Source: Pseudomonas sp. JQ170C (GTDB taxonomy: Bacteria; Pseudomonadota; Gammaproteobacteria; Pseudomonadales; Pseudomonadaceae). From it: a stretch of 64,000 nucleotides of DNA. The position numbers and the translations under genes were made by a program. The stretch is taken from NCBI RefSeq assembly GCF_035581345.1, contig NZ_CP141608.1:3316501-3380500 (forward strand), given 5' to 3'. Below the pieces are notes generated by a model that saw only the letters and a program-made list of their open reading frames with translations, did no database searches and had not been told where the DNA came from. Shown here piece by piece: positions 22,146 to 40,105 of this stretch (the stretch's first letter is position 1; each line of letters opens with the position of its first letter).

Positions 22146-25100
22146 ATGCATGGTTCGCGTGGTTTTTCCCCTGCCCCACATCTGCGTCCACAAGCCCAGA
22201 CGCTTGCACTGGAGCCCAGGATTCTGTTCGACGGCGCTGCTGCCACGGCAGCGGCCGATCAGCAGCACGCCGATACGACGGCCCCCAAGGACGATGCCTC
22301 GGCGCACACCACGCCCACCGATGCCCCGGCGCGCAGCGAGCCTGCACCTTCGGCCGCCCGGCATCTGCTGGTGCTCGACAGCCGTATCGAAAATAAAGAG
22401 CAGTTGGTCGCGCAGTTGCCCAGCGACGTCACTGCCCTGGTGGTCGACAGCAGCCAGGACGGGCTGGCGGCCATTTCCGCGGCCCTGGCACAGCTGGGCA
22501 AGGTCGACTCGATCCAGGTGCTGTCCCACGGCGGCGCCGGGCAGTTCACCCTGGGCAACCGCACCATCACGGCCGACAACATCGCCACCCTCGCCCCCAC
22601 CCTGCAACAGTGGCAAGTCAACCTGACCCAGGACGCCGATATCCAGCTGTATGGCTGCAACATTGGTGCAGGAACGGCCGGCAAGACCCTGGTCACCGAA
22701 CTGGCGCGCTGGACCGGCGCCGATGTCGCGGCCTCCGACAACGACACCGGGAACGCTGCCGCCGGCGGTGACTGGAACCTGGAGGTGCGCAACGGCACCA
22801 TCGACCAGCACATTGCCCTGAGTGCGGTGGCCCTGGCCGACTTCGACGGCCTGCTGGCCGATGCAGCGCCCACGGCGAGCGTGCCGGTGGCCGGCGACGA
22901 CGTTCTGCTGGGCAACACCTTCAACTTCACGGTGAACTTCAACAACACCTCGGGGCAGGCAGGCTACGCACCGTTTCTCAATATTTTCATGCCGGTTACC
23001 GGCAGAGACGGCGACGATGGCGTCACTTTCATCTCCGCCAGCTACCTGGGCCAGAGCCTGGTGGCCCATGCGGTCACCTTCGATGCCTCCGGCAATGCCA
23101 CCCACCCCTTGGCCAAGGACGCCAGCGGCAACTTCGTGGTGCTCAATGCCGGCACCTACGGCCTGCGCGCAGGCGATCAGCTCGTGGTGCTGGAGCTGCC
23201 GTTCGCCAGTGTGACGGCCGACCAGCCGGTGATTCCGGTACAGATCACCGCCAGCCTCAGCCCCCTGGCCGACACCGCCTTTTCCGACGGCTCGCCTGAC
23301 CTGGTGATCAAGACCAGCGGCGGCTTCGAGTTCGGCAACGACGCCCTCGACAACCCCACGGGCGACCCCAGCCTGATGCAGATCGGCACGGCCGATTACA
23401 CCGTGCACCCCACGGTACTGACCATCGACCAGACCCTCTCGACCCCCGAAGGCGAGACGGTCACCGGGCCGAACTTCGGCCGGACCCTGACCGTGACCAT
23501 CACCCCGGCCCCCGGGCAGACCCTGAGCAATGTGCAGGTCACCCAGCCCTTGCCCGATAACGTCCAGGTCACGGCCATCACCCCCGGCCCCGGGGGCGTG
23601 CTGCGCTCGATCACCCTGCACGACGGCACGGTGATCACTGATCCGACCGGCATCGCGGCGGCCATTGCCGCCAATGACATCTTTATCGACTCGTTCACCG
23701 TCGAGTACGCCACGCTGTCTGCCGCCACCGATACCCAGGTGGTGTTCTATGTGCCCGAATTCGATGCCAACGCCCTGCCGGTGCTCGATCCAGTCACCGG
23801 CAACCCGGTGACCATCACCGTGGGCGCACCGACCGCCAGCGGCCAATGGGCGCCGCTGGACCCCCGTGATGTGGTGGCACCGAACACCACCATCGACTTC
23901 AGCGGCACCGGCGACCCCGTGCAGTTCGTCGCCAAGTCGATCACCCTGCTCAAGCAAGTGGGCATTACCAACGATATCGGCCAGGTCGGCGTGACCCCGG
24001 GCGACACCTTGCAGTACACCTTGAACCTTGCCATTTCGGACTTCTTCGCCTTCGGCAAGGACTTCTTCAATGAAGGCCAGCTGGTGGTGCGCGACCAGCT
24101 CAGCGACGGCCAGACGCTGGTCGGCACCCCGACCATTACCGTGACCATCAATGGCGTGGCGCGCACCATCACCCTGGTGACCAGTACCGTCACCAACACC
24201 GACGGCAGCACCTCCCTGGTGTTCGATATTGCCCAGTCGCTGCGTGATGCCGCCGCCGTGGTCGGCGGCTGGTTCAATGGCGACCTGGCCTTCGACGACC
24301 GCCTCGAAGGCGCCGCGCTGGCCGTGCTCAGCTACACCGCACTGGTCGGGCAAAGCTACCGCCCGCCGTCAGGCGCACCCCACAGCGAAATCAACGAAGG
24401 CGACGACCTGGGCAACTCGGCGGTGGTCGAAGGCACGCTGCTGCAGGATGTGCTCAACCTCACCGGCGCGTCGCAGTCCGACGATTCGTCGACGGTGAGC
24501 ACGGTGCCGACGCGCACCGTGGATATCCAGATCCTCGACGTCAACAACCAGCCACCCCCCGCCAACGGCGAACTGCGCCCGGGCGATGAGGTGACCTTCC
24601 AGCTCAGTTACGACCTGGTCACCGGCGACTACGAGAACTTCAAGCTCACCGCCTACCTGCCCCTGCCGCTGTTCGATGTCACCGGCATCACCTGGGCAGT
24701 GGGCGACCAGGCCGGTCAATGGCAGATCGGTGACGGCAACACCAACCTCGGGGGTGTGATCTCGGTCACCAGCGCCAACGGCAACTCGGTGGTGTTCGAC
24801 TTCGGCAGTTTCGTCACCGCCGGTACCGCCGGCAGCCGCATCGTGGTGCGCTTTACCCTGCGCGTGGGCGACCAGCCGTTTGCCGACCAGCGCTCACTGG
24901 ACGTGCTGGCCCAATCCAGCCAACAGACCACCCTCACCGACCGCACGCTGATCTCTTCGGACATCGCGGTGATCGTCTCGGTCGCCGAACCTGTACTCAA
25001 CATCAAGCATGGCGTGGTCTCGGGCTCCAACGGCACGGTCACCAACACCACCGGCAGCTGGAACCCGCCGGGCAGTACCGGCGTGCCCTTCAACGGCACC

Positions 25101-28100
25101 CTCACCGACCTTGCCGCCGTGGACGGCAACATCAGCGGCATCGACGGTGCCGATCGCCTGCGCCTGGTCACGGCGATCGAGAACAGCGGCGGTGGCGGCG
25201 CGTTCGACGTGACCACCAGCATCACCTTGCCCACGGGCCTGAGCTTTGTGGGCGGCAGCCTGGCCAATGCCAACTTGCAGATCTACCGCGGCGACGGTAC
25301 ACAACTGATCGCCGGCACCGACTACCGCGTCATCGGCAACCAGATCACCTTCCTCGATGCCGGTGGCCAGGCCACCCTGCTGGCCGGGCGCAACGGCACG
25401 GCCGCCGACACCAGCGGCGCCAACCTGGTGGTGATCAGCTATGACGTCGAGGTCAGCGCCAGCATCGAAGCCAGTCGCAGCCTGCAAAGCACCGCCATCC
25501 TGAGCAACTACGCCAGTGTCGATGGCGGCAGCGACTTCACCCCCACTGACCTGCAAGACCTCGCCAATCAGCAAGTCGCCGCCCCGGAGATACGCAAGAC
25601 CTTCGCCGACGGCAGCCTCGACAACGGCGACTCCAGCGCCAGCCACACCACCGGCAGCGACCTGGTGGTGGGTGAGTCGATGCGTTACGACATCATTGTC
25701 ACGCTGCCCGAAGGCGGCACCCAGAACCTGCGCATCGACGACCTGATTCCCCCGGGCATGCGTCTGGACACCAGCTTCAACGGCGGCCTGGGCTATCAGA
25801 TCATTACCACCACCGCCGGCAGCGGCGCCCTGGGCGCCAACTTTGTCGGCAGCGTGGTGGTCAGCGGTATTGGTGGCCAGGGCGGTACCCTGGGCGACGA
25901 CGGTGTGGACGCCCGCCTGACCTTCAGCGTGTCCGGCGCCAGTGCCGACAACCTGACCGGCAACAACAGCTTTGTGATCCGCCTGCAGCTGGTGGCCAGC
26001 AACGTCATCGGCAACCAGGCCAACAAGGCGCTGCAGAACAGCGCCCAGTTGCTCTACAGCGACCCGGACGCCGACACGCCCAACGGCACTGCGCCGGTGG
26101 ACCGCACCGTCGCCCTCAGTGGCGGCCAGCCTACCGTCACCCTGCGCGAGCCGACCTTGCAGGTGACCCAGCAACTGACCTCCACCACAGGCCCTGCCGG
26201 CTATGACGAAGGCGACCCTGTCGAGTTCACCATCACCATCAGCAATGGCACGGGCAGCAGCGACTTCAACGCCTTCGACATCACCCTGCTGGACAACCTG
26301 CCCACCGAAATCGACAACCTGACCCTGGTCGGCGTGCTGTACCAGAACGGCGCCACCAACAATGGCGGCGTCGATTTTGAAATCGTCAACGGCCAGTTGC
26401 GCACGGTCAGCGGCGCCAATATCGACATCGCCAAGGGCGGCAGCATCGTCTTGCGCATCAGCGGTGTGATCAACTCCACGGCCGCTGCCGAGGCTTCCTT
26501 CGACAACCAGGCCGCAGTGCAGTGGACCAGCCTGGACGGTGCCCAGGCCGGTGAACGTACCGGTGTCGATGGCACCCTCAACAGCGGCGTGCTCAACGAC
26601 TACCAGCTGGTTTCCACCCTGATCGTGCCGGTGGCCCAGGCCATCAGCCTTTCGCGGGTCGGCGGCTTGCCGGATACCGCGCCGTCCAACCCCACCGATG
26701 GCCCGGTGGAACAGGTGACGGTCGGTGAAGTCATCCGCTACCGGGTGGTGGTGCTGGTGCCCGAGGGCAACAACCCCAACTACCAGATCCAGATCACCCT
26801 GGCCGCCGGGCTGGAATTCATCGCCCCGGATCAGTTGGCCAATGCCCTGCGCATCGCCTTTATCTCCAATGGCGGCCTGACCAGCGACGCCAACCTGATC
26901 ATCGGCGGCACCCTGAATATCGACGGCAACGAGGACAGCCCCGAAGCCCTGCCCATTACCCCGGACCTCTCCGGGGCGGCGCCCACGGGGATATTCGACC
27001 CTTCCCGGGTGGTGATCGTGAACAACCTCGATGGCACCCAGACCATCACCTTCAACCTGGGCAATGTGACCAATGGCAACGGCAACGACGACGACCTCGA
27101 AGGGATCTCCCTGGAGTTCAACGTGCGCGTCAACAACGAAGCCGCCGCCTTTGCCGGCGCCCAGCTGGGCGTAAGCGCCCAGGAAATCGTCAACGGCAAC
27201 GCCCGGGCCAGCAGCGATACCCTGTTCGAGCAAGTGGTGGAGCCCAGCTTCACCGGCCTGGACAAACACATCAGCAGCTTTGACCCCAACCCCGGCGGCA
27301 GCACCGGCACCGCCACGGTACAGATCGACTTCACCCAGAACGGCGGCCTGCCGGCCTTCGACACCCAGCTCACCGACAGCTTTGCCGGGGGCAGCGGCTA
27401 TACCCTGCTCAGCATCCAGATCAACGGCGTGACCTATGGCCCCGGCAACCTGCCCGCCGGCGTGAGCTTCAGCACCACGGGCGGTGTGAGCGTGAACTTC
27501 GACCAGCTCGATGTCGGCGCCCAGGTCAGCGTGGTGTACCAGGTGACCCTGCCCAACGCCCAGGTGATCGCCAGCAGCGACGCCACCCTGACCTGGAGCA
27601 GCCTGCCGGAAGACTTCACCAGCTTTGCCGGCTCCAGCGTGGGTGCCGATGGCCAGCCCGATGGCGAGCGCACCGGCAGCGGCAGCGGCCCCAACCAGTA
27701 CATTCTGCACGACAGCGCCGGCCTGGGCGTGATCAGCGGCACCCTGTGGAACGACACCGCCTCGGCCGACTCCAGCGTTACCCCCGACGGCCCGGGCCTG
27801 GCCGGTCAGACGGTGATTCTGACCTGGGCCGGGGCCGATGGCCTGCTCGATACCACCGCCGACAACCTGCAATTCAGCACCGTGACCGATGCCAACGGCC
27901 AGTACCGCTTCGGTGTCCTGCCGGCAGGCGTATTCCGCATCGACGTGCCCACCGGCCGAATCAACTACCCGCAGCCGCTGGGCGACCTGCGCGTACGCAT
28001 CGACAGCGATGCCAGCACCGGCCTGGGCCAGATCAACGTGACCCTGGGCGATGCCGCGACCGGCACGGCCGACGCCGGCTTCGTGGAGCAGAACGACGCG

Positions 28101-31100
28101 CCGGTCAACAGCCTGCCGGGCACCCAGAACGGCCTGGAAGACACGCCCCTGGCGATCACCGGCATCAGCGTCGGCGATGTCGATGCCAATCGCGATCCCG
28201 ACAGCAATAGCCGCACCCTGACCATCACCCTGACCGTGCATGACGGCACCCTGTCGCTGAGCAGCACCCCTGCCGGCGTGGCGGTCGGCGGCAACAACTC
28301 CAGCACCCTGACCCTGACCGGCAACCTGGCCGACCTCAACCTGGCCCTGGCCAACCTGATGTACCTGGGCAATGCCAACTTCAACGGCACCGACACCTTG
28401 ACCGTGTTCAGCAATGACCAGGGCAACTACGGTGATGCCGACGGCGACGGTATACCGGGTACGCCCAACGACGCACTGACCGACCAGGACCGCCTGCAGA
28501 TCATCCTCGCCGCGGTGAATGACACGCCGATAGCGCAGCCTGACAGCGCTACGGCCGTCGAGGCCGGCGGCACCAACAACAACGTCGCCGGTATCGACCC
28601 GCGCGGCAATGTGCTGACCAACGACACCGATGTCGACATCGCCACCAACGCCGATCGCCTGCGGGTGATCTCGGCAGGCACGCTGCCCACGAACCAGCAG
28701 ACCCTGCCCGACGCCGGCATCGTCGTGGTGGGCGGCCGCTACGGGCAATTGGTGATCGGCACCAATGGCTCCTACCAGTACTTTGTCGACAACAACAACG
28801 CCGAGGTCCAGGCCCTGCGCCTGGCCGGGCAAACCGTGTCGGAAACCTTCACCTATGTGATCGCCGACCTTGCCGGTGCCACCAGCAGCACCAGCCTGAC
28901 GGTCACGATTGCAGGTGCCAACGACACGCCGGTGGGCGTCGATGATGACGGCATCGCCGTGGAGGCCGGTGGCGTGGGCAACGCCACGGGCGGCCAGGAT
29001 GCCGTGGGCAATGTGCTGGCCAACGACACCGATGTCGACTCCGTCGCCAACGGCGAGACCCGCACCGTGCTTGGCATCCGCCACCTGCGCGAGACGGCGG
29101 CGGGCGTGTTCACCGATGTCGTGCCGGGCGTGGCCACGACCATCGACGGCACCTTCGGTACCCTCACCATCAACGCCGATGGCAGCTACCGCTACGTCAT
29201 CGACAACAGCAACACGGCAGTTCAGCGCCTGGTGGTCGGTGACCAGTTGATCGAGTTCTTCAGCTACCGGCTCCGTGACACCGGAGGGCTGGACGATATC
29301 GCCCAGTTGCGCATCGTCATCCAGGGGGCCCACGACAATCCCGTGGCCAGCGATGACGAGGCCGCCGCCCAGGCGGCGTCCACCAATGGCAATGCCCAGG
29401 AGAGCAACCCCACCGGCAACGTCATCCTGTTCCCCAGCCGGCCCGGCCCCATCGATCAGGCGGGCGGCAACGGCGTTGACCTGGACGTCGACCGCACCGA
29501 CCGGCCCAGCAGCCAGCTGCAGGTCAATGGCGTGATCGCCTCAACCGAGGCCGACTACGATCCGCTCGTGGACACCCTGACAACCGTCAACACCGGCACC
29601 ACCTCAGCCGACGGCACTGTCATCAACGGCCTGTACGGCACGCTGCGCATTGGCGCCGACGGCTCGTTCTTCTACGACGTGGACAGCGACAACCCTACCG
29701 TCCAGGGCCTGCCCCCAGGCGGTGTCCTGACCGACGTCTTCACCTATCGGATCGTCGACACCGCGGGCCTGACCGATGTGGCGCAACTGACGATCACCGT
29801 GCGCGGCGTCAACGACCCGCCCGTGGCGCAGAACGTCATCGCGGTGGCGACCGAAGCCGGTGGTTTCAATAACCAGAGCCTCGGGGTCAACCCCTCTGGT
29901 GATGCCACCGCCAACGCCTTCGACCCGGACGGCGACCCGCTGACCGTGACCGAGATCCGCGCCGGCGCAGAAAACCAGACCAACCCGCCGGTGGCGGTGG
30001 CGGTGCAGCCAGGCGGCACCCAGGTGGTCGGCCTGTACGGCACCCTGACCATCAACCCCGATGGTACCTACACCTATGTGGTGGACAACGCCAATGCCGC
30101 GGTCCAGGCGCTGCGCCTGAGCAGCGACCTGCTACTCGAACGCTTTACCTACACCATCAGCGACGGCGTCGGGGCCACCCCCGAGACCGACCGTGCCGAA
30201 ATCATCGTGCTCATCCGTGGCCAGAACGACAACCCGGTGGCCAACGACGATACGGCGACCGCGGTCGAAGCCGGCGGCCTGAACAACAACCTGCCGGGCC
30301 AGGACCCCAGAGGCAACGTACTGCACCAGGACCTGCCTGCCAGCCAACTGGGCAACGACACCGATGTCGATGGCGGCGAAGATGCCAGCGACCCGATCGA
30401 CTATGGCGAAACCCAGGCCGTAAGCTCGGTGCGCACCGGCAGCGAAACCCAGGCCGGCACCAACGGCACCCTGGGCACCGAGCTGCGCGGCGCTTATGGC
30501 TGGCTGACGCTCAACGCCGACGGCAGCTACAGCTACCGCCTCGACAATGCCATGACCGAGGTGCAGCAACTGCGCGCGGGCAACAGCCTGCAAGACCTGT
30601 TCAGCTACACCGTGATCGACGCCAGCGGCGCCGAAGACCGCGCCACCCTGACCATCAACATCAACGGTGCCAACGACACCCCGGTCGCCCGCAACGACAT
30701 CGCCACAGCCATCGAGGCCGGTGGCCAGGGCAACAACATTCCGGGCAGCAACCCCAGTGGCAATGTGCTGGGCAACGACACCGACGTCGACGCCTTCGGC
30801 GAAACCCTGAGCGTCACCCGTGTCAGCCAGGGCATCAACGTCGGGATTATCGGCAGCGCCTTCGTCGGCACCTACGGCACCCTGACGCTGGGCGCCGATG
30901 GCAGCTACACCTATGTGCTGGACAACAACAACCCGCAAGTCCAGGCCTTGCGCAGCGCCGCCAATACCCTGACCGAAGCCTTCACCTACAGCATTCGCGA
31001 CCTGGCCGGTGCCACCAGCTCGGCGCAGTTGATCATCATCATCCAGGGCCGTGACGACACGCCGGTGGCGGTCAACGACACCGCCATTGCCGTGGAGGCC

Positions 31101-33503
31101 GGGGGCACCTTCAACGCCACCCCCGGGGTCAACCCCACCGGCAACGTGCTGGCCAATGACACCGACGTCGATGCCAACGACACCAAGACCGTCAACGGCA
31201 TCCGCACCGGCGCCGAAGCCGCGGGCGGAATCTTCACCGCCGTCACCGGCAGCCAGGTCATCAATGGCCTGTACGGCACCCTGACCATCGGCGCCGATGG
31301 CAACTTCACCTATGTCGTCAACAACAGCCTGGCTGCAGTGCAGGCGCTGAAACAGGGCGAATCGCTGATCGAGCAGTTCACCTACAGCATGCGCGACACG
31401 GCCGGGCCTATCGACACCGCGCAGTTGATCATCACCGTCCAGGGTGCCTGGGACGCCCCGGTGGCCACCAACGACGTGACCGTGGCGGTGGCCGACAACG
31501 GCAACGGCAACAGCGTCAACCCCACAGGTAACGTGCTGCCCAACGACACCGATGTCGACCAGGGCGACCAGAAGCACGTCAGCGCTGTCCGTGCCGGCAA
31601 CGAAGCCGCGGCCGGCCCCCTCGACCCGGTCAATGGCGGCACCAACAACACCAACGGCACCGTGATCACCGGGCTGTACGGCCAACTGATCATCGGTGCC
31701 GACGGCAGCTTCATCTACAACATCGACAGCAGCAACCCGACGGTGCTCGCCCTGGGGCCGCTGCAGTTCCTGCGGGATACCTTCACCTACCAGGTCACCG
31801 ACCTGGGTGGCCTGAACGACCTGGCCGAGCTCAACATCATCATTCGCGGGCGCAACGATGCGCCGGTGGCCAACGATGACGCCGCCACCGCCGTCGAGGC
31901 CGGCGGCCTGGACAACAGCGAGGCCGGCATCAACCCCAGCGGCAACGTCATCACTGACAACGACACCGACGCGGAAGGCGACGTACTGCATGTGATCGGC
32001 ATCAGCACCGGCGCAGGCACGGTGGGTACCGTGGGCAGTACCTTGCGCGGCCTGTACGGTGACCTGACGCTGCATGCCGACGGCAGTTGGCAGTATGTGC
32101 TCGACAACAACCTGGACGTGGTCCAGGCCCTGCGCACCAGCGGCCAGACCCTCACCGACGTGTTCAGCTACACCCTGGTCGACTTCTGGGGCGCATTCGA
32201 CACCGCCCAGCTGACCATCACCGTCGATGGCCGCAACGACACGCCCCACGCCCGGGACAATGGCAGCATCGCCGTGGAAGCCGGTGGCGTGGCCAACGGC
32301 ACCCCGGGCCGCGACGGCGTGGGCAACGTGCTGGGCAACGACACCGATGTCGACAGCGTCGCCAACGGTGAGAGCAAACAGGTGCAAAGCTTCAGCAATG
32401 AAGACGGCCAATCGGTCAGCGCCGGCCAGGTACTGGTCGGTCGCTATGGTCGAATGACGCTCAATGCCGATGGCAGCTACACCTACCTGGTCGACAACAG
32501 CAACCCCACCGTCCAGGCCTTGCGCACCGCCGGCGAGACGTTGTCGGAGACCTTCACCTACCGCATGCGCGATACCACGGGGGCCACGTCCGATGCACGC
32601 CTGACTGTGGTGATCCAGGGTGCCAACGACGCGCCCGTGGCGCAGAACGACAGCGCCGTGGCCATCGACCAGGTGCCCGCACCACAAACCAGCGGCAATG
32701 TGCTGCCCAACGACAGCGATGTGGATGGCAACGACCGCTTGCAGGTGGTTGGCGTGCGCACCGGAGCCGAAGCGGCCAGCGGCAACGCCGGCCTGGTCGG
32801 CCAGCCGCTGCAGGGCCTGTACGGCACACTGATCCTCAACGCCGACGGCAGCTACACCTACAGCATCGACCTGAATAACCCGCAGGTACTGGCAGCCGCC
32901 GGCCTGGGCCAGGTGCTGCAGGACGTCTTCACCTACACCGTGGGCGACCTGGCCGGCGGCCAGGACCTGGCGGAACTGGTCATCACCCTGGACATCGCCG
33001 CGCCGTTCATTCCGGCGCCCGCCGGTGAGTTTTTCAACCGCCCGACCAGTGATCCTTTCAATCGTCTGCCGCTTCCCGATGTGCTCCCGGCGATCTTCAT
33101 TACCCCGGTGGTGGAGCGCGATGCACGGCTCAATGAGCTCTCCAGCTGGGAAACCGGCGGCAGCCGGCTGCGCCTGGCAACGGTGGCCGCGCAGCAGAGT
33201 GAATCCATCGGTGCCGGACTGGGGCTGGTGCAGGGTCAGTTTGTCAGCAACAGCGTGCAGCGCAGCCAGCGCGACAGTGAGCTGGACCTTGCGTGGTTGC
33301 TCGGGCGTCAGGGGCGTACCAGCCTCAGTGCCGATGGGCTGCTCAGCGATCCTTCGGTGTTCACCCTGGACCCGGCGCACCTGACCCAGGGCCCGGCGCA
33401 AAGCGAACCCCCTGCCGAGCCCCGCAACGCGCGTGGTTTTACTGCGCAATTGCACGCCGCCGCACAGCGTTTGTACCCGCACGGGCGTAGCGCACCAGAA
33501 TGA
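22146..33503 (+). CDS. Giant DUF4347 / VCBS-repeat surface protein, putative adhesin
   Basis: The protein has 3785 residues and starts behind a GAGGG site. There is no Sec signal; the N-terminus has the LEPRILFDGAA motif (22-32) common in giant secreted proteins. DUF4347 spans about 72-238, with SHG (127-129) and YGC (169-171). DUF11-like beta-rich repeats run from about 240 to 1855, then a CnaB/SdrD-B-like unit (1859-1980) and a cadherin-like unit (about 1984-2123). Eleven VCBS-type repeats of 120-160 residues follow (about 2125-3617), most opening NDxPVA..DxATAVEAGG and containing YGTLTxxADGSYTY. The tail of about 170 residues has no RTX nonapeptides. It probably serves in attachment or biofilm, exported by the operon at 34.4-40.1 kb (inference). 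Confidence 0.92.
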   Translation: MHGSRGFSPAPHLRPQAQTLALEPRILFDGAAATAAADQQHADTTAPKDDASAHTTPTDAPARSEPAPSAARHLLVLDSRIENKEQLVAQLPSDVTALVVDSSQDGLAAISAALAQLGKVDSIQVLSHGGAGQFTLGNRTITADNIATLAPTLQQWQVNLTQDADIQLYGCNIGAGTAGKTLVTELARWTGADVAASDNDTGNAAAGGDWNLEVRNGTIDQHIALSAVALADFDGLLADAAPTASVPVAGDDVLLGNTFNFTVNFNNTSGQAGYAPFLNIFMPVTGRDGDDGVTFISASYLGQSLVAHAVTFDASGNATHPLAKDASGNFVVLNAGTYGLRAGDQLVVLELPFASVTADQPVIPVQITASLSPLADTAFSDGSPDLVIKTSGGFEFGNDALDNPTGDPSLMQIGTADYTVHPTVLTIDQTLSTPEGETVTGPNFGRTLTVTITPAPGQTLSNVQVTQPLPDNVQVTAITPGPGGVLRSITLHDGTVITDPTGIAAAIAANDIFIDSFTVEYATLSAATDTQVVFYVPEFDANALPVLDPVTGNPVTITVGAPTASGQWAPLDPRDVVAPNTTIDFSGTGDPVQFVAKSITLLKQVGITNDIGQVGVTPGDTLQYTLNLAISDFFAFGKDFFNEGQLVVRDQLSDGQTLVGTPTITVTINGVARTITLVTSTVTNTDGSTSLVFDIAQSLRDAAAVVGGWFNGDLAFDDRLEGAALAVLSYTALVGQSYRPPSGAPHSEINEGDDLGNSAVVEGTLLQDVLNLTGASQSDDSSTVSTVPTRTVDIQILDVNNQPPPANGELRPGDEVTFQLSYDLVTGDYENFKLTAYLPLPLFDVTGITWAVGDQAGQWQIGDGNTNLGGVISVTSANGNSVVFDFGSFVTAGTAGSRIVVRFTLRVGDQPFADQRSLDVLAQSSQQTTLTDRTLISSDIAVIVSVAEPVLNIKHGVVSGSNGTVTNTTGSWNPPGSTGVPFNGTLTDLAAVDGNISGIDGADRLRLVTAIENSGGGGAFDVTTSITLPTGLSFVGGSLANANLQIYRGDGTQLIAGTDYRVIGNQITFLDAGGQATLLAGRNGTAADTSGANLVVISYDVEVSASIEASRSLQSTAILSNYASVDGGSDFTPTDLQDLANQQVAAPEIRKTFADGSLDNGDSSASHTTGSDLVVGESMRYDIIVTLPEGGTQNLRIDDLIPPGMRLDTSFNGGLGYQIITTTAGSGALGANFVGSVVVSGIGGQGGTLGDDGVDARLTFSVSGASADNLTGNNSFVIRLQLVASNVIGNQANKALQNSAQLLYSDPDADTPNGTAPVDRTVALSGGQPTVTLREPTLQVTQQLTSTTGPAGYDEGDPVEFTITISNGTGSSDFNAFDITLLDNLPTEIDNLTLVGVLYQNGATNNGGVDFEIVNGQLRTVSGANIDIAKGGSIVLRISGVINSTAAAEASFDNQAAVQWTSLDGAQAGERTGVDGTLNSGVLNDYQLVSTLIVPVAQAISLSRVGGLPDTAPSNPTDGPVEQVTVGEVIRYRVVVLVPEGNNPNYQIQITLAAGLEFIAPDQLANALRIAFISNGGLTSDANLIIGGTLNIDGNEDSPEALPITPDLSGAAPTGIFDPSRVVIVNNLDGTQTITFNLGNVTNGNGNDDDLEGISLEFNVRVNNEAAAFAGAQLGVSAQEIVNGNARASSDTLFEQVVEPSFTGLDKHISSFDPNPGGSTGTATVQIDFTQNGGLPAFDTQLTDSFAGGSGYTLLSIQINGVTYGPGNLPAGVSFSTTGGVSVNFDQLDVGAQVSVVYQVTLPNAQVIASSDATLTWSSLPEDFTSFAGSSVGADGQPDGERTGSGSGPNQYILHDSAGLGVISGTLWNDTASADSSVTPDGPGLAGQTVILTWAGADGLLDTTADNLQFSTVTDANGQYRFGVLPAGVFRIDVPTGRINYPQPLGDLRVRIDSDASTGLGQINVTLGDAATGTADAGFVEQNDAPVNSLPGTQNGLEDTPLAITGISVGDVDANRDPDSNSRTLTITLTVHDGTLSLSSTPAGVAVGGNNSSTLTLTGNLADLNLALANLMYLGNANFNGTDTLTVFSNDQGNYGDADGDGIPGTPNDALTDQDRLQIILAAVNDTPIAQPDSATAVEAGGTNNNVAGIDPRGNVLTNDTDVDIATNADRLRVISAGTLPTNQQTLPDAGIVVVGGRYGQLVIGTNGSYQYFVDNNNAEVQALRLAGQTVSETFTYVIADLAGATSSTSLTVTIAGANDTPVGVDDDGIAVEAGGVGNATGGQDAVGNVLANDTDVDSVANGETRTVLGIRHLRETAAGVFTDVVPGVATTIDGTFGTLTINADGSYRYVIDNSNTAVQRLVVGDQLIEFFSYRLRDTGGLDDIAQLRIVIQGAHDNPVASDDEAAAQAASTNGNAQESNPTGNVILFPSRPGPIDQAGGNGVDLDVDRTDRPSSQLQVNGVIASTEADYDPLVDTLTTVNTGTTSADGTVINGLYGTLRIGADGSFFYDVDSDNPTVQGLPPGGVLTDVFTYRIVDTAGLTDVAQLTITVRGVNDPPVAQNVIAVATEAGGFNNQSLGVNPSGDATANAFDPDGDPLTVTEIRAGAENQTNPPVAVAVQPGGTQVVGLYGTLTINPDGTYTYVVDNANAAVQALRLSSDLLLERFTYTISDGVGATPETDRAEIIVLIRGQNDNPVANDDTATAVEAGGLNNNLPGQDPRGNVLHQDLPASQLGNDTDVDGGEDASDPIDYGETQAVSSVRTGSETQAGTNGTLGTELRGAYGWLTLNADGSYSYRLDNAMTEVQQLRAGNSLQDLFSYTVIDASGAEDRATLTININGANDTPVARNDIATAIEAGGQGNNIPGSNPSGNVLGNDTDVDAFGETLSVTRVSQGINVGIIGSAFVGTYGTLTLGADGSYTYVLDNNNPQVQALRSAANTLTEAFTYSIRDLAGATSSAQLIIIIQGRDDTPVAVNDTAIAVEAGGTFNATPGVNPTGNVLANDTDVDANDTKTVNGIRTGAEAAGGIFTAVTGSQVINGLYGTLTIGADGNFTYVVNNSLAAVQALKQGESLIEQFTYSMRDTAGPIDTAQLIITVQGAWDAPVATNDVTVAVADNGNGNSVNPTGNVLPNDTDVDQGDQKHVSAVRAGNEAAAGPLDPVNGGTNNTNGTVITGLYGQLIIGADGSFIYNIDSSNPTVLALGPLQFLRDTFTYQVTDLGGLNDLAELNIIIRGRNDAPVANDDAATAVEAGGLDNSEAGINPSGNVITDNDTDAEGDVLHVIGISTGAGTVGTVGSTLRGLYGDLTLHADGSWQYVLDNNLDVVQALRTSGQTLTDVFSYTLVDFWGAFDTAQLTITVDGRNDTPHARDNGSIAVEAGGVANGTPGRDGVGNVLGNDTDVDSVANGESKQVQSFSNEDGQSVSAGQVLVGRYGRMTLNADGSYTYLVDNSNPTVQALRTAGETLSETFTYRMRDTTGATSDARLTVVIQGANDAPVAQNDSAVAIDQVPAPQTSGNVLPNDSDVDGNDRLQVVGVRTGAEAASGNAGLVGQPLQGLYGTLILNADGSYTYSIDLNNPQVLAAAGLGQVLQDVFTYTVGDLAGGQDLAELVITLDIAAPFIPAPAGEFFNRPTSDPFNRLPLPDVLPAIFITPVVERDARLNELSSWETGGSRLRLATVAAQQSESIGAGLGLVQGQFVSNSVQRSQRDSELDLAWLLGRQGRTSLSADGLLSDPSVFTLDPAHLTQGPAQSEPPAEPRNARGFTAQLHAAAQRLYPHGRSAPE

Positions 33504-33512
33504 ATGGTGCTT

Positions 33513-34340
33513 TGTGGATTGTCGGGAAAGGTTGGCTTGGATGGTGATGGTGATGGTGACGGTGACGGTGACGGTGACGGTGTGCTTATCCATTTTGTGT
33601 GGTGGGGCCACTGGCCCCTTCCGCCCTTACGGCGGGTTCCTTTGGCAAACGCCCCAAAGGAACACAAAGGTCTCGCCCCACCAGGGGCCCTACGCTTCGC
33701 TACGGGTCCCCTCACTACGGCGTCGCTACGGGGCATTGCGAGCTACGAGTTGCAAGCAACTCTACGCTTCGCAACTTCGGCCATGGCCGAAGGCGCTTCG
33801 CGCTAGCCCCTCCACGACACCTCCGCTCGGCCCTTCTGGTTAACGGGGCCGGTGGATCAAGATCAAGAGCACAATTCGCTGCGCTCTTGCTTTTGAACCA
33901 CAGTGAGTCAGTAGGCACCGCTCTTTTGTTTTTGTTCTTTTGTTTTTGCTCTTTTGCTCTTTTGCTCTTTTGCTCTTTTGCTTTTGATCTTGCTTTTGAT
34001 CTACCTGCCCCGTTAACCAGAAGGGCCGAGCGTAGGTGTCGTGGAGGGGTGAGTGCGAAGCACCTTCGGCGCTAACCGAAGTCGCGAGACGTAGAGTTGC
34101 TTGCAACTCGTAGGCCGCGATACCCCGTAGCGACACCGGAGTGAGGGGACCCGAAGCGAAGCGTAGGGCCCCTGGTGGGGCGAGAATTTTTTGCTTACTT
34201 TTTTTCGACTGAAAAAAAGTAAGGCGCCGTAAGGGCGCAAAGGTGACTCGGCGCCGCCTTGGCAAATGGATAAGTCCGCGAAAGCCACAAGCCACAAGCT
34301 ACAAAGCTACAAAGCTACAAAGCTACAAAGCTACAAACCC
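33513..34340. repeat. Large palindromic repeat element B
   Basis: This is the second copy of the element at 15776-16645, in the same orientation. It starts 10 bases after the giant-protein stop and ends about 40 bases before the TolC-like gene. The order is the same: hexamer run, CTTATCCATTTTGTGTGG, left arm (about 33600-33840), octamer-like centre, inverted right arm (about 34010-34260), and CTACAAAG units at the end. The left outer hairpin differs from copy A (TTCCTTTGG...CCAAAGGAA). The 877-base gap holds only this element; frames inside look like read-through. Confidence 0.85.
33543..33578. repeat. Hexamer tandem repeat, GGTGAT/GGTGAC x6
   Basis: Two GGTGAT and four GGTGAC units run head to tail, 40 bases after the giant-protein stop, at the left margin of element B. 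Confidence 0.95.
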
Positions 34341-34380
34341 GTGAAGATCCGAATTCACTGCTCTATACAAAGGACTGAAT

Positions 34381-35916
34381 ATGCCCACAAACGCGACCCG
34401 GTTTACGATAACGGCCCTCACTTCAGCCTTGATACTCAGCGCCTGCGCGTCGCTGGAACCCCAGGCCATCACCGAAGAACAGAACCGCCAGCGCATCGTC
34501 GACGACCAGGCCCGCATGTACCGTGACCAAGAACCGGTCACCGCGCCCATCACCTTTTACGAAGCCGCGGCGCGGGCACTGAAATACAACCTCGACTACC
34601 GGCTCAAACTGATGGAAAGCGCCCTGGCCTCAGACCTGCGCGACGTCTCCAGCCACGAAATGCTACCGCGCCTGGTGGCCTCGGCCGGCTATGCCGGACG
34701 AAACAACGACTCAGGCGGCACCTCCATCGGCATCGAGGACCGCGAAGAGAGCTTGCGCCCATCGACCTCCGAAGACCGCTACCGCACACTCTACGGCCTG
34801 GGCCTGAGCTGGAGCCTGCTCGACTTTGGCGTCGCCTACTACCGCACCCAGCAAAAAGCCGACCAGATGCTGATGGCCGACGAACGCCGGCGCAAGGTGG
34901 CGCAGAACGTCCTGCAGGATGTACGCAACGCATATTGGCGCGCACTGGCCGCGCAACGCCTGATGCCTGAAGTGGACAAACTGCTGGCCCGCACCCACCG
35001 CGCCCTGACCCAGGCCCGCGAGGCCGAGAACAAAGGCTTGCTGCCCCGCCAGGAGATCCTCGCCTACCAGCGCGCCCTGCTCGACTCGGTGTACCTGCTC
35101 ACCGTCCGCCGCCAGGACCTGGAATTCGCCCAGGCCGAGCTGTCAGCCTTGATGTCGCTGCCACCCAAGACCCGCATGGTCCTGGCCGACATGCCCGAGC
35201 CGCAACTGCCGCAGATCGGTACCGGTATCGACCAGCTGGAGCTGCTGTCGCTGCAAAACCGCCCGGAGATCATGGAAGAGTGGTACCGCAAGCGGGTCAA
35301 CGAGAAAGACCTGAAGATTGCCAAAGCGCAACTGTGGCCCAACGTCAGCTTCGACTACGGCTACCGCTACGACTCCAACTCGCTGGCCTACAACAGCCAT
35401 TGGAATGCCACCGGCCTGCAGGTGTCGATGAACCTGCTCAAGCTGCTGCAACTGCCCTCGCTCAACGCCGCCCAGCAGTCGCAAGGCAACACCGACGACA
35501 TGCGCCGGGTCGCGCTGTCGATGGCCATCCTCACCCAGGTGCGGGTGGGCGCCTTGCGCTATCAACTGGCACGCCAGGAGGTGACGTTCTCCGATGAAAG
35601 CCTGCGGGTGGACCAGAGCCTGCTCAACTACGCCCAGGCGGCGCAGCGCAACAACCTGGGATCGGAGCTCGAGCTGATCCGCGCCGAAGGTCGCTACCTG
35701 CTCTCGCGCTACCAGCGCGAGGCGGCGTTCTCCAGTGCCCAGGCGGCCTGGGGCCGGCTCTACAACTCCATCGGCCTGGACATCCTGCCGGCCGAGATCG
35801 ACCAGCACGACATCAAGACCCTGGCCAACGAGATCCACCGCACCCTCAATGAACAGGAACAAAAACGCCTGCTCGTCACCCAGCAAGGAACGCCTCATGC
35901 CCAACCGAGCTTGTGA
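34381..35916 (+). CDS. TolC-family outer-membrane lipoprotein of the M50/HlyD exporter
   Basis: This 511-residue protein has a lipoprotein signal: LSAC places the lipid-bearing cysteine at residue 22. Two long helical TolC repeats follow, for example VAQNVLQDVRNAYWRALAAQ and a later VRVGALRYQLARQEV. TolC proteins form the outer-membrane tunnel of tripartite exporters. It is the first gene of a four-gene operon with overlapping or abutting genes. Only element B separates it from the giant surface-protein gene, so it probably serves that protein. Expression from its own promoter within or after element B is possible; I could not locate one. Confidence 0.92.
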   Translation: MPTNATRFTITALTSALILSACASLEPQAITEEQNRQRIVDDQARMYRDQEPVTAPITFYEAAARALKYNLDYRLKLMESALASDLRDVSSHEMLPRLVASAGYAGRNNDSGGTSIGIEDREESLRPSTSEDRYRTLYGLGLSWSLLDFGVAYYRTQQKADQMLMADERRRKVAQNVLQDVRNAYWRALAAQRLMPEVDKLLARTHRALTQAREAENKGLLPRQEILAYQRALLDSVYLLTVRRQDLEFAQAELSALMSLPPKTRMVLADMPEPQLPQIGTGIDQLELLSLQNRPEIMEEWYRKRVNEKDLKIAKAQLWPNVSFDYGYRYDSNSLAYNSHWNATGLQVSMNLLKLLQLPSLNAAQQSQGNTDDMRRVALSMAILTQVRVGALRYQLARQEVTFSDESLRVDQSLLNYAQAAQRNNLGSELELIRAEGRYLLSRYQREAAFSSAQAAWGRLYNSIGLDILPAEIDQHDIKTLANEIHRTLNEQEQKRLLVTQQGTPHAQPSL

Positions 35917-36679
35917 ATCTGCCGTGATGATTCTGCTGTCGCTCGCCACTGCCCTGCCCGCCTGGGCCGAAGACGCCCCCCAGGCGCCCCTGGTGCCGCC
36001 GCCCCTGGATGAGGCCGCGGCCATTCGCGTGTTGCTGGCCCCTGAGCTGGAAACCACCTTGTCGAGCCAGATGGCCGGCACCCTGACCGAGCTGCGCGGC
36101 AGCTTCGGCCAGCGCGTGGCCAAGGCAGCCCCGCTGGCACGCTTCAATTGCAGCGAAGCCCAGGCCCGGGCCAAGGTGGCCGCCGCCGAGCTGGCCATGG
36201 CCCGGCAGAACCTGGATGCCAAGAGAAACCTGCGCAAACTCGATGCCGTGGGCGATCTGGAAGTGTCCATGGCCAATACCGAAGTGCAGAAGGCCGACGG
36301 CGCCCAGGCCATGGCCGCCGCGCAAACCGGCTATTGCCAGGTGCTGGCGCCGTTTGCCGGGCGAGTGGCCAAGGTCCATGTAAAGCCCTACCAGACCGTG
36401 AGTGCCGGCACGCCGCTGTTCGACCTGGTCAGCGATGGCGACCTCAAGGTGCGCCTGAACGTGCCCTCCACCCGCTTGAAGAACCTCAAGCCCGGCATGC
36501 CCCTGGAGGTGAATATCGTTGAGACCGGCAAGCAGTACCCGGCGCATATCAGCGTCATCAATGCCCGGGTCGATGCCGTGGCGCAGACCGTCGAGCTCGA
36601 AGCCCAGCTCGATAACAAGTACCCCGAATTGATTGCCGGCATGAGCGGCACGGCGCGGTTCCCCGATGACCATGAGTGA
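35897..36679 (+). CDS. HlyD/RND-type periplasmic adaptor subunit
   Basis: This is a 260-residue adaptor with an N-terminal Sec signal (about residues 1-24, ending LPAWAED). The barrel-sandwich halves are SSQMAGTLTELRGSFGQRVAKAAPLARF and, after a helical hairpin, QVLAPFAGRVAKVHVKPYQ. A beta-barrel segment with LFDLVSDGDLKVRLNVPS follows. It is small for the family and has no membrane anchor after cleavage. The ATG follows AAGGAACGCCTC and overlaps the TolC gene by 20 bases. In tripartite exporters such proteins bridge the inner-membrane part and TolC. It is one of three HlyD-type proteins in this operon. Confidence 0.9.
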   Translation: MPNRACESAVMILLSLATALPAWAEDAPQAPLVPPPLDEAAAIRVLLAPELETTLSSQMAGTLTELRGSFGQRVAKAAPLARFNCSEAQARAKVAAAELAMARQNLDAKRNLRKLDAVGDLEVSMANTEVQKADGAQAMAAAQTGYCQVLAPFAGRVAKVHVKPYQTVSAGTPLFDLVSDGDLKVRLNVPSTRLKNLKPGMPLEVNIVETGKQYPAHISVINARVDAVAQTVELEAQLDNKYPELIAGMSGTARFPDDHE

Positions 36680-38009
36680 ATCGCCGCCGCTCAACCTGCT
36701 GCTACAGCTGGGGGCCCTGCGCGATCGTGCCTTGCAGGCCGACTCGCTCAATGCCTTGAGCTTCTCCATGGCCAACGACTTGTACCCGCTGCTGGCGTTC
36801 CACCAGGCCCTGGTGTTCGCCCAGCAGGGCAAGCGTCTTGAGCTGCTGCAGGTGTCGGGCCTGACCCGCCCCAGCGAAGACTCGCCCTACCTGGTGTGGC
36901 TGCAGCGGGCCAGCCGCTGGATCGCCAGCCAAGTGCCCGACGCGGCCCCCGTGTGGCTGACCCGCAGCAGCGTGCAGCCGCCCACTGATGTCGCCGACGG
37001 CTGGGATGAATGGTGGCCCGAGGGGCTGTGGTGCCTGCCGGTACATGATCGCGACGGGCAACGCCTAGGGCTGTTGCTGCTGTTGCTGGAGCAGGCGCCG
37101 CCGGCGGTGATGCAGCAGGCCGTGCCTACCCTGCTCGACACCTGGGGTTACTGCTGGACAGCACTGACGCGCCAGCGCCGGCTGCTGTCCTGGCGCCTGA
37201 GTCGGCGCCAGGGGTTGCTGCTGTTGGCGGCCCTCGGGCTGCTGTTGCTGGTGCCGGTACGCCAGAGCGCATTGGCGCCGGCGGAAATCGTCTCGCGCCA
37301 GGCGCAGATCATCAGTTCACCCATTGATGGCGTCATCGACCAGATCCAGGTACGGCCCAACCAGGTGGTCGACGTCGGGACGCCGTTGTTTTCCCTCGAT
37401 GAAACCACCCTGCGCAGCCGCGCCGAAGTACTGGGCAAGGAAGTCGCGGTGGCCGATGCCGAACTGTCGGCCGCCAGCCAGCGCGCCTTCGACAACCCGC
37501 AAAGCAAGGGCGAACTGACCCTGCTCGAAGGCCGCGCGCGCCAGCGCCGGGCCGAGCTGGCAGCGGTCCAGGCCCAGCTCAAGCGCACCCGGGTACTGGC
37601 GCCGCGCGCGGGCGTTGCGGTGTTCAGCGACCCCAACGACTGGCTGGGCAAACCGGTGGTCACCGGCGAACGCATCATGCAGGTGGCCGACCCAGCGCAA
37701 CCGGCGATGCTCATCCAGTTGCCGGTGGCCGACGCCATTGCCCTGGAACCCGGGGCCGAGGTGACGCTGTTTCTGACCGCCTACCCGCTGACGCCGCTCA
37801 AGGGCAAGATCCTCGAGACCAGCTACCAGGCCCGCAGTACCGATGACAACGTGGTCGCCTATCGGCTGCTGGCGAGCATCGACGAAGCCTCGGAGCATGC
37901 CCGCCTGGGCCTGCACGGCACCGCCAAGCTGTATGGTGGCCGGGTGATGCTCGGCTATTACCTGCTGCGTCGCCCGATTGCGGCGGTCCGTGCCTGGAGC
38001 GGCCTGTAA
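36666..38009 (+). CDS. Membrane-anchored HlyD protein with cytoplasmic sensor-like N-terminus
   Basis: The protein has 447 residues from the ATG at 36666; the ATG two codons later is equally possible. Residues 1-170 are soluble and look GAF-like (SMANDLYPLLAFHQALVFAQ, then LWCLPVHDRDGQRLGLLLLL). One membrane segment follows (about 183-198). The HlyD part then starts with APAEIVSRQAQIISSPIDGV, has a helical hairpin and RTRVLAPRAGVAVF, and ends after a beta-barrel domain. The gene overlaps both neighbours. An inner-membrane adaptor with a cytosolic regulatory domain is unusual for type I secretion. The GAF assignment is tentative. Confidence 0.87.
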   Translation: MTMSESPPLNLLLQLGALRDRALQADSLNALSFSMANDLYPLLAFHQALVFAQQGKRLELLQVSGLTRPSEDSPYLVWLQRASRWIASQVPDAAPVWLTRSSVQPPTDVADGWDEWWPEGLWCLPVHDRDGQRLGLLLLLLEQAPPAVMQQAVPTLLDTWGYCWTALTRQRRLLSWRLSRRQGLLLLAALGLLLLVPVRQSALAPAEIVSRQAQIISSPIDGVIDQIQVRPNQVVDVGTPLFSLDETTLRSRAEVLGKEVAVADAELSAASQRAFDNPQSKGELTLLEGRARQRRAELAAVQAQLKRTRVLAPRAGVAVFSDPNDWLGKPVVTGERIMQVADPAQPAMLIQLPVADAIALEPGAEVTLFLTAYPLTPLKGKILETSYQARSTDDNVVAYRLLASIDEASEHARLGLHGTAKLYGGRVMLGYYLLRRPIAAVRAWSGL

Positions 38010-40105
38010 TGCGCGAGCCCGCCGACCTGCCCTTGCCGCCACTGCGTGAAGACCTGCGCCTGTGCGAAGCGTCCGAAGGCAGCAACGGCGAGCCGGCCTG
38101 GGTGATCCAGGACACGGTGATCAACCGCTTCTACCGGATCGGCTGGCTGGAGTTCGAGTGCCTGCTGCGCTGGGGCCAGACCCCGCGCCAGATCAGCACC
38201 CAGATCGCCGAACAGACGGCCCTCAAGCCCGATGTCGACCAGGTGCTGGGGTTCCAGGCCTTCCTCGAACAGCACCAACTGCTGCGCGCGGGCCCCCAGG
38301 CGCTGGAGCGGCTCAAGGCGCGCGCTGACGAGCGCACCTGGCTGAGTTGGCGCTGGTGGCTGCATCACTACCTGTTCTTCCGTATCCCGCTGGTGCGCCC
38401 GCAACATCACCTGCAGCACCTGGCCCGGTCACTGGGCTGGTTGTTCAGCCCGCTCACGGCAGTGGCGGTGATGGCCTTGAGCGTGCTGGGGATCATCCTG
38501 GTGCTGCACCAGTGGGACACCTTCGTCCACGACGTGGTCGAGTCGTTCTCGGTCGAGGGGCTGCTCAGCTTTGCCTTGGCGCTGATGGTCGCCAAGACCT
38601 TGCACGAGTTGGGCCATGCCTTGGTGGCGACCCGCCTGGGCTTGAAGGTGGGGCACATGGGGATCGCCTTCGTGGTGCTCTGGCCCATGCTCTACACCGA
38701 CACCGGGGAAAGCTGGAAACTGCGCAAGTCGCAGCAGCGCCTGGCCATCGCCGCGGCCGGGATCATCACCGAGCTGTCGCTGGCAGGCCTGAGCACCCTG
38801 GGCTGGGCCCTGTGCGACCCGGGCCCGCTGCGCAATGCCCTGCTGTACCTGGCGACCACTAGCTGGGTGTTGTCGCTGGCCCTCAATGCCAGTCCGTTCA
38901 TGCGCTTTGACGGCTACTTCATCCTTTCCGACCTGCTGGACTTTCCCAACCTGCACGAACGCGCCTCGGCCCTGGCCCGGGTCAGCCTGCGCCGCAGCCT
39001 GCTGGGCCTGGACGAGCCCTGGCCGGAACACTTTGCGGTCGGCAAGCGCCGCCTGCTGGTCACCTTTGCCTTTCTCACCTGGGCCTACCGGCTGGTGCTG
39101 TTCCTGGGTATTGCCCTGGCGGTGTACCTGTTCTTTTTCAAATTGCTGGGGATCGTACTGTTGGTAGTGGAACTGTCGTGGTTTATCGCCATGCCGATCT
39201 GGCGTGAGCTCAAGCACTGGTACACCCAGCGCAGTGCCGTGCCGCAGCGCCGGCGCTGGCTGTTCTATGGCCTGCTGGCGGCGCTGTTGCTGCTGTTGGC
39301 GGTGCCCTGGCGCAGCCAGATCGACGCCGTGGGCGTGGCCCGTGCCGAGCATCAACTGCGGGTGTATGCGCCCTATCCTGCGCGCCTGCAGTCAGTGCGC
39401 GCCGAGGGGGCGGTCAAGGCCGGTGACACCCTGGTGGTACTGGACGAACCCGACATTGCCTCGCGCCTGCAGAGCAGCGAAGCCAACGCCCGCAGCTACC
39501 AGGCACGCCTGGGTGGCCTGCTGGCCGAGCCGGGAGGGCTTGCCGAACAGGCGGCGACCCGTGAGCGCTTGCGCGTGCAGTACGAGGAAGCGCGCTCGGC
39601 GCGCTCGGAAATCGCCCGCCTTAACCTGCAGGCACCGTTTGAAGGGCAATGGCTGGATGTGAACCCTGACTGGCGGCCCGGGCAATGGGTGGGGCGCCAG
39701 GAAGCCCTGGGGGTCTTGATCGACCCGCGCCACTGGCAAGTCGATGCCTATGTCGACCAGGACAAAGTGCACCGCCTGGTCCAGGGTGGCCGGGTGCGTT
39801 TTTACGCCGATGGGCAGCCTGTGCCGGTCAGCGGACAGGTGATCGCCATCGCCAGCACCCGCACCAGCCAGCTCAGCCACCGGCTATTGGCGTCACGCTA
39901 CGGCGGGCCGTTGGCGGTGGCCGCCCATGACAGCGCGCTGATACCGACGACGGCGGTGTTCCAGGTATTGGTGCAACTGGACGCACCCTTGCCGTCGCTG
40001 CGCGAAACCCGCGGGCACCTGAAAATCGAAGGCGAACGCCGCAGCTTGCTGGCCGATGGTGTGACCCACCTGATGGCGGTGTTTCTGCGCGAGAGCGGGT
40101 TCTGA
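38009..40105 (+). CDS. PqqD-like / M50 metalloprotease / HlyD fusion protein
   Basis: The protein has 698 residues; its start overlaps the previous stop (TAATG). Residues 12-95 look like a PqqD or RRE-type winged helix (VINRFYRIGWLEFECLLRWG ... ALKPDVDQVLGFQAFLEQHQLL). A polytopic membrane part follows, with the M50 zinc motif HELGH (199-203) and the second motif N293..PFMRFDG (to 302). Further membrane segments extend to about 430. Residues about 440-698 form a HlyD-like adaptor (YAPYPARLQSVRAEGAVKAG, LQAPFEGQW). Such proteins are often labelled putative peptide zinc metalloproteases. It could be the inner-membrane export or processing unit of this system, since no ABC ATPase is present (inference). 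Confidence 0.9.
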   Translation: MREPADLPLPPLREDLRLCEASEGSNGEPAWVIQDTVINRFYRIGWLEFECLLRWGQTPRQISTQIAEQTALKPDVDQVLGFQAFLEQHQLLRAGPQALERLKARADERTWLSWRWWLHHYLFFRIPLVRPQHHLQHLARSLGWLFSPLTAVAVMALSVLGIILVLHQWDTFVHDVVESFSVEGLLSFALALMVAKTLHELGHALVATRLGLKVGHMGIAFVVLWPMLYTDTGESWKLRKSQQRLAIAAAGIITELSLAGLSTLGWALCDPGPLRNALLYLATTSWVLSLALNASPFMRFDGYFILSDLLDFPNLHERASALARVSLRRSLLGLDEPWPEHFAVGKRRLLVTFAFLTWAYRLVLFLGIALAVYLFFFKLLGIVLLVVELSWFIAMPIWRELKHWYTQRSAVPQRRRWLFYGLLAALLLLLAVPWRSQIDAVGVARAEHQLRVYAPYPARLQSVRAEGAVKAGDTLVVLDEPDIASRLQSSEANARSYQARLGGLLAEPGGLAEQAATRERLRVQYEEARSARSEIARLNLQAPFEGQWLDVNPDWRPGQWVGRQEALGVLIDPRHWQVDAYVDQDKVHRLVQGGRVRFYADGQPVPVSGQVIAIASTRTSQLSHRLLASRYGGPLAVAAHDSALIPTTAVFQVLVQLDAPLPSLRETRGHLKIEGERRSLLADGVTHLMAVFLRESGF

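Follow-up and report, generated by a model that had tools for sequence, protein, structure and literature searches.

Organization of the locus

The stretch of DNA analyzed here, hereafter the window, comprises 64,000 nucleotides of Pseudomonas sp. JQ170C (NZ_CP141608.1, positions 3,316,501 to 3,380,500), the genome of which is a single contig of 5.94 Mb. The subject of this study is a gene for a giant, presumably surface-located protein and the four-gene exporter-like operon that follows it, all on the forward strand. The five genes lie where a preliminary description, made from the sequence alone, had placed them. The giant protein, referred to below as the cargo, has 3785 residues (22146..33503) and consists of a LEPR leader, a DUF4347 domain, VCBS/cadherin-like repeats and a C-terminal tail. 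The operon encodes a TolC-like outer-membrane factor (OMF, 34381..35916), a HlyD-type adaptor (HlyD-1, 35897..36679), a membrane HlyD-type adaptor (HlyD-2, 36666..38009) and a fusion of an RRE-like domain, an M50 site-2 protease and a HlyD part, which is the candidate inner-membrane component (38009..40105). The probable start of HlyD-1 is the ATG at 35897, within a listed open reading frame (ORF) that begins with GTG. None of the four genes encodes an ATP-binding cassette (ABC) protein, as had been stated before. The earlier picture of four tightly packed genes after the giant gene is accurate for the operon, in which neighbors overlap by 20, 14 and 1 bases in turn, but the giant gene is set apart by 877 bp of a dispersed repeat (33504..34380) that is no part of the machine. 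In Pseudomonas vranovensis (L008) the same gap is ~28 bp.

Conservation of the operon

Conservation was assessed in 87 loci chosen by similarity to the fusion, namely the window, six loci on plasmids and the best 80 among 562 relatives confirmed in a GTDB scan, many of them close kin. Flanks reach 10 kb, with genes upstream of the giant gene mostly outside, and the profile hidden Markov models (HMMs) of the operon proteins were built from six loci (the window and five plasmid loci). The order OMF-HlyD-HlyD-M50 is kept in 82 of the 87 loci, the exceptions being L026, L027, L028, L077 (cut) and L082. The ordered loci include Pseudomonas, Variovorax, Caballeronia, Cupriavidus, Azospirillum, Halomonas, Aeromonas, Desulfopila and plasmids of E. 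coli and Citrobacter, and among named relatives the fusion is closest to that of P. vranovensis (97%, in a listing that may leave out the genome of the window itself). With the fusion as the query, tblastn against plasmids gave 78 records, and all six plasmid neighborhoods inspected (Caballeronia, Cupriavidus, Azospirillum, Magnetospirillum, Citrobacter and E. coli) contain an OMF, two HlyD proteins and the fusion. A match to the operon was found in 24 of 5426 complete E. coli genomes, spanning at least 80% of its length in 22, and 21 of the 25 places are on plasmids. An alternative arrangement, with the fusion followed by the cargo and then the OMF, is found in L125-L127. When ORFs of at least 120 aa were compared, no further partner gene was conserved in more than 12 of the 87 loci. 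The 12-locus cluster itself was rejected as a partner; judged by the first residues of its members, it links ABC-like, aminotransferase and regulator ORFs by chance.

Co-occurrence was examined in 398 Pseudomonadota genomes, with two candidates scored per genome and a genome called fusion-positive when the best E was <1e-160. DUF4347 was detected in 95 genomes and a close fusion homologue in 77; 71 genomes have both, 6 the fusion only, 24 DUF4347 only and 297 neither (odds ratio 146, p 5e-50). A hand count by genus gave 32/3/17/160 in the same order (p 4e-22), and both p values are overstated because related genomes are not independent. Within the genus of the window the figures are 5/5 versus 0/6. 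DUF4347 lies within 30 kb of at least 41 of the 112 listed fusion places, counting the 150 DUF4347 matches listed. DUF4347 and the fusion, the pair singled out in the preliminary description, co-occur strongly, and the linkage of the giant protein with the four genes is conserved well outside this genome.

Co-occurrence does not make DUF4347 the hallmark of the system. We ruled this out since three of the six fusion-only genomes (G082, G222 and G298) encode, beside the operon, LEPR giants that have no DUF4347 domain (4385, 3246 and 2163 aa, measured from stop to stop), and since fusion-negative genomes encode DUF4347 proteins that have no LEPR leader; the domain is a frequent but not a defining cargo feature, and LEPR is the better marker. 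In the other fusion-only genomes, the giant ORF of G193 is cut by the stretch and has the variant tail LAESL, the ORF of G203 is cut by the stretch end and has the tail LSEQL, and no cargo was found in the stretch of G057 that was read. Four of the 24 DUF4347-only genomes contain a distant fusion homologue (G186, G144, G048 and G287), which in G186 and G144 adjoins the DUF4347 gene.

A distant M50-HlyD family scoring 240-313 bits with the fusion HMM was observed at L148-L157 (G186, G144, G287, G297, G010, G159, G332, G014, G069 and G089), often adjoining a longer HlyD-like protein. The DUF4347 proteins that it adjoins in G186 and G144 have LEPRLLFSA or LEERLLLSA leaders.

Proteins of the operon

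The OMF matches the Pfam family OEP (E 9.8e-35) and has a lipobox, LSAC (Cys22), that is kept in 76 of 82 homologous ORFs, in line with its earlier reading as a TolC-like lipoprotein; TIGR01844 scored only 54 bits against a cut-off of 225. HlyD_3 (Pfam) was detected in the other three operon proteins, in which the type I HlyD model TIGR01843 stayed below its cut-off. HlyD-1 had been called a soluble adaptor, and its Sec-like N-terminus makes it a periplasmic one. HlyD-2 is a membrane HlyD protein by Pfam and NCBIfam, as described, but the ~180-residue N-terminal domain ahead of its transmembrane segment, said to be sensor-like, has no significant Pfam match, and a GAF or PAS assignment is unsupported by Pfam. 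The Walker A pattern was matched by none of the homologues of the OMF (0/82), HlyD-2 (0/86) and the fusion (0/87) and by one of HlyD-1 (1/86).

Three parts of the fusion could be assigned. Residues 8-94 (38030..38290) are predicted to fold as an RRE, the peptide-binding domain of lasso peptide B1 proteins (PDB 6jx3, 5v1u and 5v1v); the PqqD-like start reported before thus agrees with the predicted fold but not with Pfam, and a PDB sequence search likewise gave nothing significant for PqqD, so that fold search alone revealed the resemblance. This fold suggests signal recognition by the N-terminus rather than gating. Residues 180-373 match the site-2 protease RseP (PDB 7w6x), and residues 409-698 match the adaptors MacA, EmrA and MexA by predicted fold, the HlyD/MacA-like periplasmic part being placed at 39305..40048 with the additional support of Pfam. 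The fold search listed no match over residues ~95-180 and 374-408, which implies nothing on the fold there. By its sequence the protein has both marks of a site-2 (M50) protease, HExxH in a predicted transmembrane helix (HELGH, residues 199-203, 38603..38617) and a second conserved Asp motif (SPFMRFDG, residues 295-302, 38891..38914), in which we take Asp301 to be the third zinc ligand by homology to site-2 proteases. The catalytic motifs, previously noted as intact, are widely conserved: strict patterns for the two match 86 fusions each, and all 87 fusions retain the zinc residues, including the deviants with HEFGH (L084) and PFTRFDG (L061). The top NCBIfam match of the fusion is a daptide M50 protease, at 153.7 bits against a cut-off of 300.

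The giant cargo and its terminal motifs

The DUF4347 domain of the cargo (residues 74-237, 22365..22856; Pfam E 1.4e-50) is probably a cysteine protease domain, perhaps a clan-CD-like one, to judge from its predicted fold. Its His128 and Cys171 are conserved in 66 of 66 sequences, and this cysteine is the only one in the giant protein. The hydropathy of the N-terminus is low (11-residue maximum 1.41, versus 2.54 for HlyD-1), which fits the reported lack of a Sec signal, and none of the three LEPR cargo proteins examined has a Sec-like hydrophobic N-terminus. The T1SS-143 repeat model (60.4 versus 66.05, NCBIfam) and the LEPR-XLL model NF012209 (15.8 bits versus 17) fell below their cut-offs, although the LEPR motif itself is present, and no RTX repeat or type I secretion C-terminal model of Pfam or NCBIfam matched the protein at E 0.01.

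Judged from sequence patterns, the better cargo signature is N-terminal LE-x-R-x-[LM]-F-D-[GA]-A, joined by C-terminal F-x-x-Q-L in cargo beside the operon. The leader motif of the window, LEPRILFDGA (residues 22-31, 22209..22238), is a proposed N-terminal recognition signal. LE-x-R-x-h-[FLMY]-[DS]-[GA] was detected upstream of DUF4347 in 39 of 43 ORFs of fusion-positive genomes versus 3 of 17 from fusion-negative ones; G186 and G144 account for two of these three, and the third belongs to G189, a genome that is 57% complete. The encoding DNA of LE-x-R-x-h-F-D-[GA]-A, written as a degenerate pattern that is independent of gene calls, matched 53 of the 398 genomes, 51 of the 77 fusion-positive and 2 of the 321 negative (G189 again, and G116), while the reversed control pattern matched 2 genomes. 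There are 90 such places in all; for 40 of them a fusion gene is listed on the same contig, no more than 25 kb away in 39 cases, and in genomes of at most 60 contigs 16 of 18 places are near the fusion.

The proposed C-terminal signal of the window cargo is GFTAQLHAAAQRL (residues 3764-3776, 33435..33473). [FLM]-x-x-Q-[LIVMF] occurs within the last 60 residues of 73 of 74 cargo tails beside operons, with the consensus TAxGF[SR]xQLRxAAQRL located 14-37 residues from the cargo end. The 74 tails are those of the 87 loci minus six with no large upstream ORF and seven in which the upstream ORF does not adjoin the operon (L005, L026, L027, L028, L057, L062 and L082). Shuffled tails matched 6.3 times on average (maximum 13), interior windows 83 times in 1071, and the C-termini of the operon proteins in 8/82 (OMF), 19/86 (HlyD-1), 0/86 (HlyD-2) and 6/87 (M50).

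Other ends were also seen among DUF4347 proteins. L110, L121 and L123, which are from fusion-negative genomes and have no LEPR leader, contain 9-11 cysteines. The C-terminal end of L110 and L123 is hydrophobic, with basic residues, and resembles GlyGly-CTERM tails. The LEPR/DUF4347 proteins L131, L135, L137 and L139 share another tail, ending PQTPQYGAMxSAGHxxGGDY, which we take to resemble caspase/CHAT ends.

Features of individual loci and neighboring elements

The plasmid units of L006 and L007 (E. coli and Citrobacter) have a cargo of 4457-4465 aa. The Citrobacter unit is near tellurium resistance genes, the E. coli unit has an IS1 copy closely downstream, and HlyD-2 is split in L006. On the Magnetospirillum plasmid pMSR-1 (L005, 12457-13935) a 492-aa ELWxxDGT protein is in the cargo position; its tail is a variant one, FQEEL, and a LEPR motif is absent from the annotated start. 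The giant gene of Caballeronia NK8 (L002, 3618-14185) is broken into two reading frames. In the window, the dispersed element of ~0.8 kb at 33504-34380 recurs at ~15870-16676 and has 131 matches in the genome, including 17 other copies that span most of its length at 80-89% identity. The two halves of the element are inverted matches of one another, which makes it a large imperfect palindrome, similar to a miniature inverted-repeat transposable element. Positions 3142-10693 on the reverse strand encode non-ribosomal peptide synthetase modules (condensation, AMP-binding and PP-binding).

Weighing the proposed function

The conserved machine and the tagged giant cargo form one functional unit. 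We consider it rather probable that this unit serves to export and process giant LEPR surface proteins, with an inner-membrane part that is not an ABC pump, and that the machine is probably dedicated and ABC-independent. Several observations weigh against this reading. The LEPR pattern missed 4 of the 43 DUF4347 ORFs of fusion-positive genomes, and its DNA version misses 26 of the 77 fusion-positive genomes, including that of the window, though the protein there has the motif. DUF4347 is present in 24 genomes that have no close fusion. The loose tail pattern is also present in 19 of 86 C-termini of HlyD-1, a control family, and in a sample of DUF4347 proteins taken mostly away from operons the motif was found in 16 of 25 from fusion-positive versus 1 of 12 from fusion-negative genomes; the tail is therefore not universal, and some of the 16 matches may be due to chance. 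The repeats of the giant protein pass the BapA/Bap/LapF family adhesin model NF045619 (459.1 bits, cut-off 180) in 11 stretches, the best at residues 2281-2421, and members of this adhesin family are type I cargo. An energy source is not visible in the operon. The genome of the window encodes two LssB-type ABC proteins over the family cut-off, at least 1.8 Mb from the locus, and 52 of the 71 genomes with both the fusion and DUF4347 have an ABC of the LssB, PrtD or HlyB type over cut-off (LssB in 39 and PrtD in 17, together 45, and HlyB in 7 of the remaining 26, which are the genomes covered by the HlyB and C39 searches).

These ABC genes, the adhesin match and the proposed C-terminal signal, a feature that typifies type I cargo, favor an explanation in which a type I ABC exporter from another part of the genome takes the cargo over the inner membrane and the operon provides the channel, the adaptors and a processing protease. 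In the genome of the window, help in trans from one of the two LssB-type proteins may be possible. As a general explanation we regard it as unlikely, since none of the three types exceeds its cut-off in 19 of the 71 genomes. Ten of the 19 have a completeness of at least 90% and a contamination of at most 5%, though some of the 10 score just under (e.g., G045, HlyB 668 versus 725). In five genomes with fusion and DUF4347 (G023, G213, G004, G064 and G088; completeness 95-100%) the type I ABC models matched only weakly (HlyB at most 373 bits), and C39 peptidase matches were limited to G023 and G213, where the ORFs are short (377 and 273 aa). Every genome has general ABC proteins, and the five-genome result therefore counts against a dedicated type I ABC and not against all ATPases. 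With regard to the absence of ABC genes from co-occurring genomes that the preliminary description proposed as a check, these near-complete genomes have no strong type I ABC match, but the majority have one. Near the operon, ABC-like ORFs occur within 9 kb in only 7 of the 87 loci, at distances of 1.9-8.6 kb, in either orientation and with no conserved position; these are seven members of the rejected 12-locus cluster. No annotated ABC exporter is located beside the unit on the E. coli and Citrobacter plasmids in the stretches read. The cargo could also reach the periplasm otherwise, by Sec or another route, and the machine would then only cut, anchor or release it. Site-2 proteases usually cut rather than transport, and the hydrophobic C-terminal tails of the fusion-negative DUF4347 proteins L110 and L123 are in keeping with such a maturation device, but those two have no detected LEPR motif, the three LEPR cargo proteins examined lack Sec-like N-termini, and a full OMF with three adaptor domains suits a conduit, so that we find this account improbable. 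Export of a peptide resembling a ribosomally synthesized and post-translationally modified peptide (RiPP), or of a small molecule, with the giant gene as an accidental neighbor, was already disfavored and is very improbable: RRE and M50 domains are known in peptide maturation and the best NCBIfam match is a daptide protease, but that match is at about half its cut-off, and linkage to giant genes is seen again in different classes, the cargo bearing matching tags at each of its ends.

Proposed mechanism

For the preferred reading, that of an ABC-independent export-and-processing machine, we infer a course of events from the anatomy, the conserved linkage, the two terminal motifs, the predicted folds and the intact catalytic residues. 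The RRE domain of the fusion would bind a signal at one end of the cargo, with the LEPR leader as the likeliest candidate and the FxxQL tail as a possible one, and the site-2 protease may trim or free the signal-bearing end inside the membrane. The HlyD part of the fusion and the two other adaptors would dock to the lipoprotein TolC-like channel, giving a single conduit across the envelope through which the cargo is translocated. Where present, the N-terminal DUF4347 domain could cut for a second time, in a cysteine-dependent way, and so free or retain the adhesin. Energy would come from a source other than a dedicated type I ABC, such as the proton motive force, folding outside the cell or a general ATPase.

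If correct, this is a tripartite exporter in which the pump has been replaced by a leader-reading protease, and it raises the question of how a protein of 3800 residues gets through both membranes with no ABC motor. The DUF4347 and LEPR annotations would also gain a function, and the two tags would give a rule by which cargo can be spotted in genomes, including the giant genes of some E. coli and Citrobacter plasmids. No description of such a system was found in the open-access PMC literature, the search excluding subscription papers and preprints.

Comparison with known systems

Individual parts of the machine have clear counterparts. The RRE domain has the same predicted fold as the lasso peptide B1 proteins and is here fused to a protease-adaptor; leader-binding RRE domains belong to RiPP pathways, and no RiPP precursor was seen here, though no search was aimed at one and the neighboring ORFs compared were those of at least 120 aa. 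The protease shares fold and HExxH with RseP, with RRE and adaptor domains attached, and is related in sequence to the M50 intramembrane proteases of the daptide and YydH types (NF041824 and NF058609), but the fusion is below both cut-offs, has a HlyD part and is paired with a cargo of thousands of residues. MacA, EmrA and MexA, which share the adaptor fold, work with ABC, major facilitator superfamily or resistance-nodulation-division pumps, whereas no pump is encoded in this operon. With respect to the cargo, Tce1 (PA0256) is a DUF4347 protein with a solved structure (9qpe_G) and a stand-alone type VI cargo (PMC13323088, PMC8262886), while here the domain heads an adhesin. The RSP proteins of IncHI plasmids are likewise large, Ig-like, plasmid-encoded surface proteins, but their export is reported to require a type IV secretion ATPase and not this operon, and we therefore rejected them as the same system (PMC6764697).

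The closest overall likeness is to the type I systems for giant adhesins. LapA with LapBCE, BapA and LapF are type I secretion systems or cargo of this kind, and the locus resembles them in its TolC-like channel, HlyD adaptors, giant repeat adhesin and C-terminal motif. It differs in having no ABC ATPase in the operon, an adaptor fused to an RRE and a site-2 protease, a LEPR leader and no matched RTX model. It is therefore like a tripartite exporter but lacks the defining ABC feature of type I secretion, just as it falls short of the daptide score. The distinct secretion machine for giant adhesins that was first suggested is favored by the conserved linkage and the absence of an operon ABC, and disfavored by the type I ABCs elsewhere in the same genome. 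We file the machine among the tripartite envelope exporters, with a fair chance that it is a separate secretion type. The fuller version of that proposal is tentative, and we hold it as possible but somewhat doubtful: a type in which adhesins tagged at both ends would be read by a RiPP-style domain, cut by an adaptor-fused site-2 protease and passed through a lipoprotein TolC channel with no ABC ATPase, with a caspase-like cargo domain setting their release or retention.

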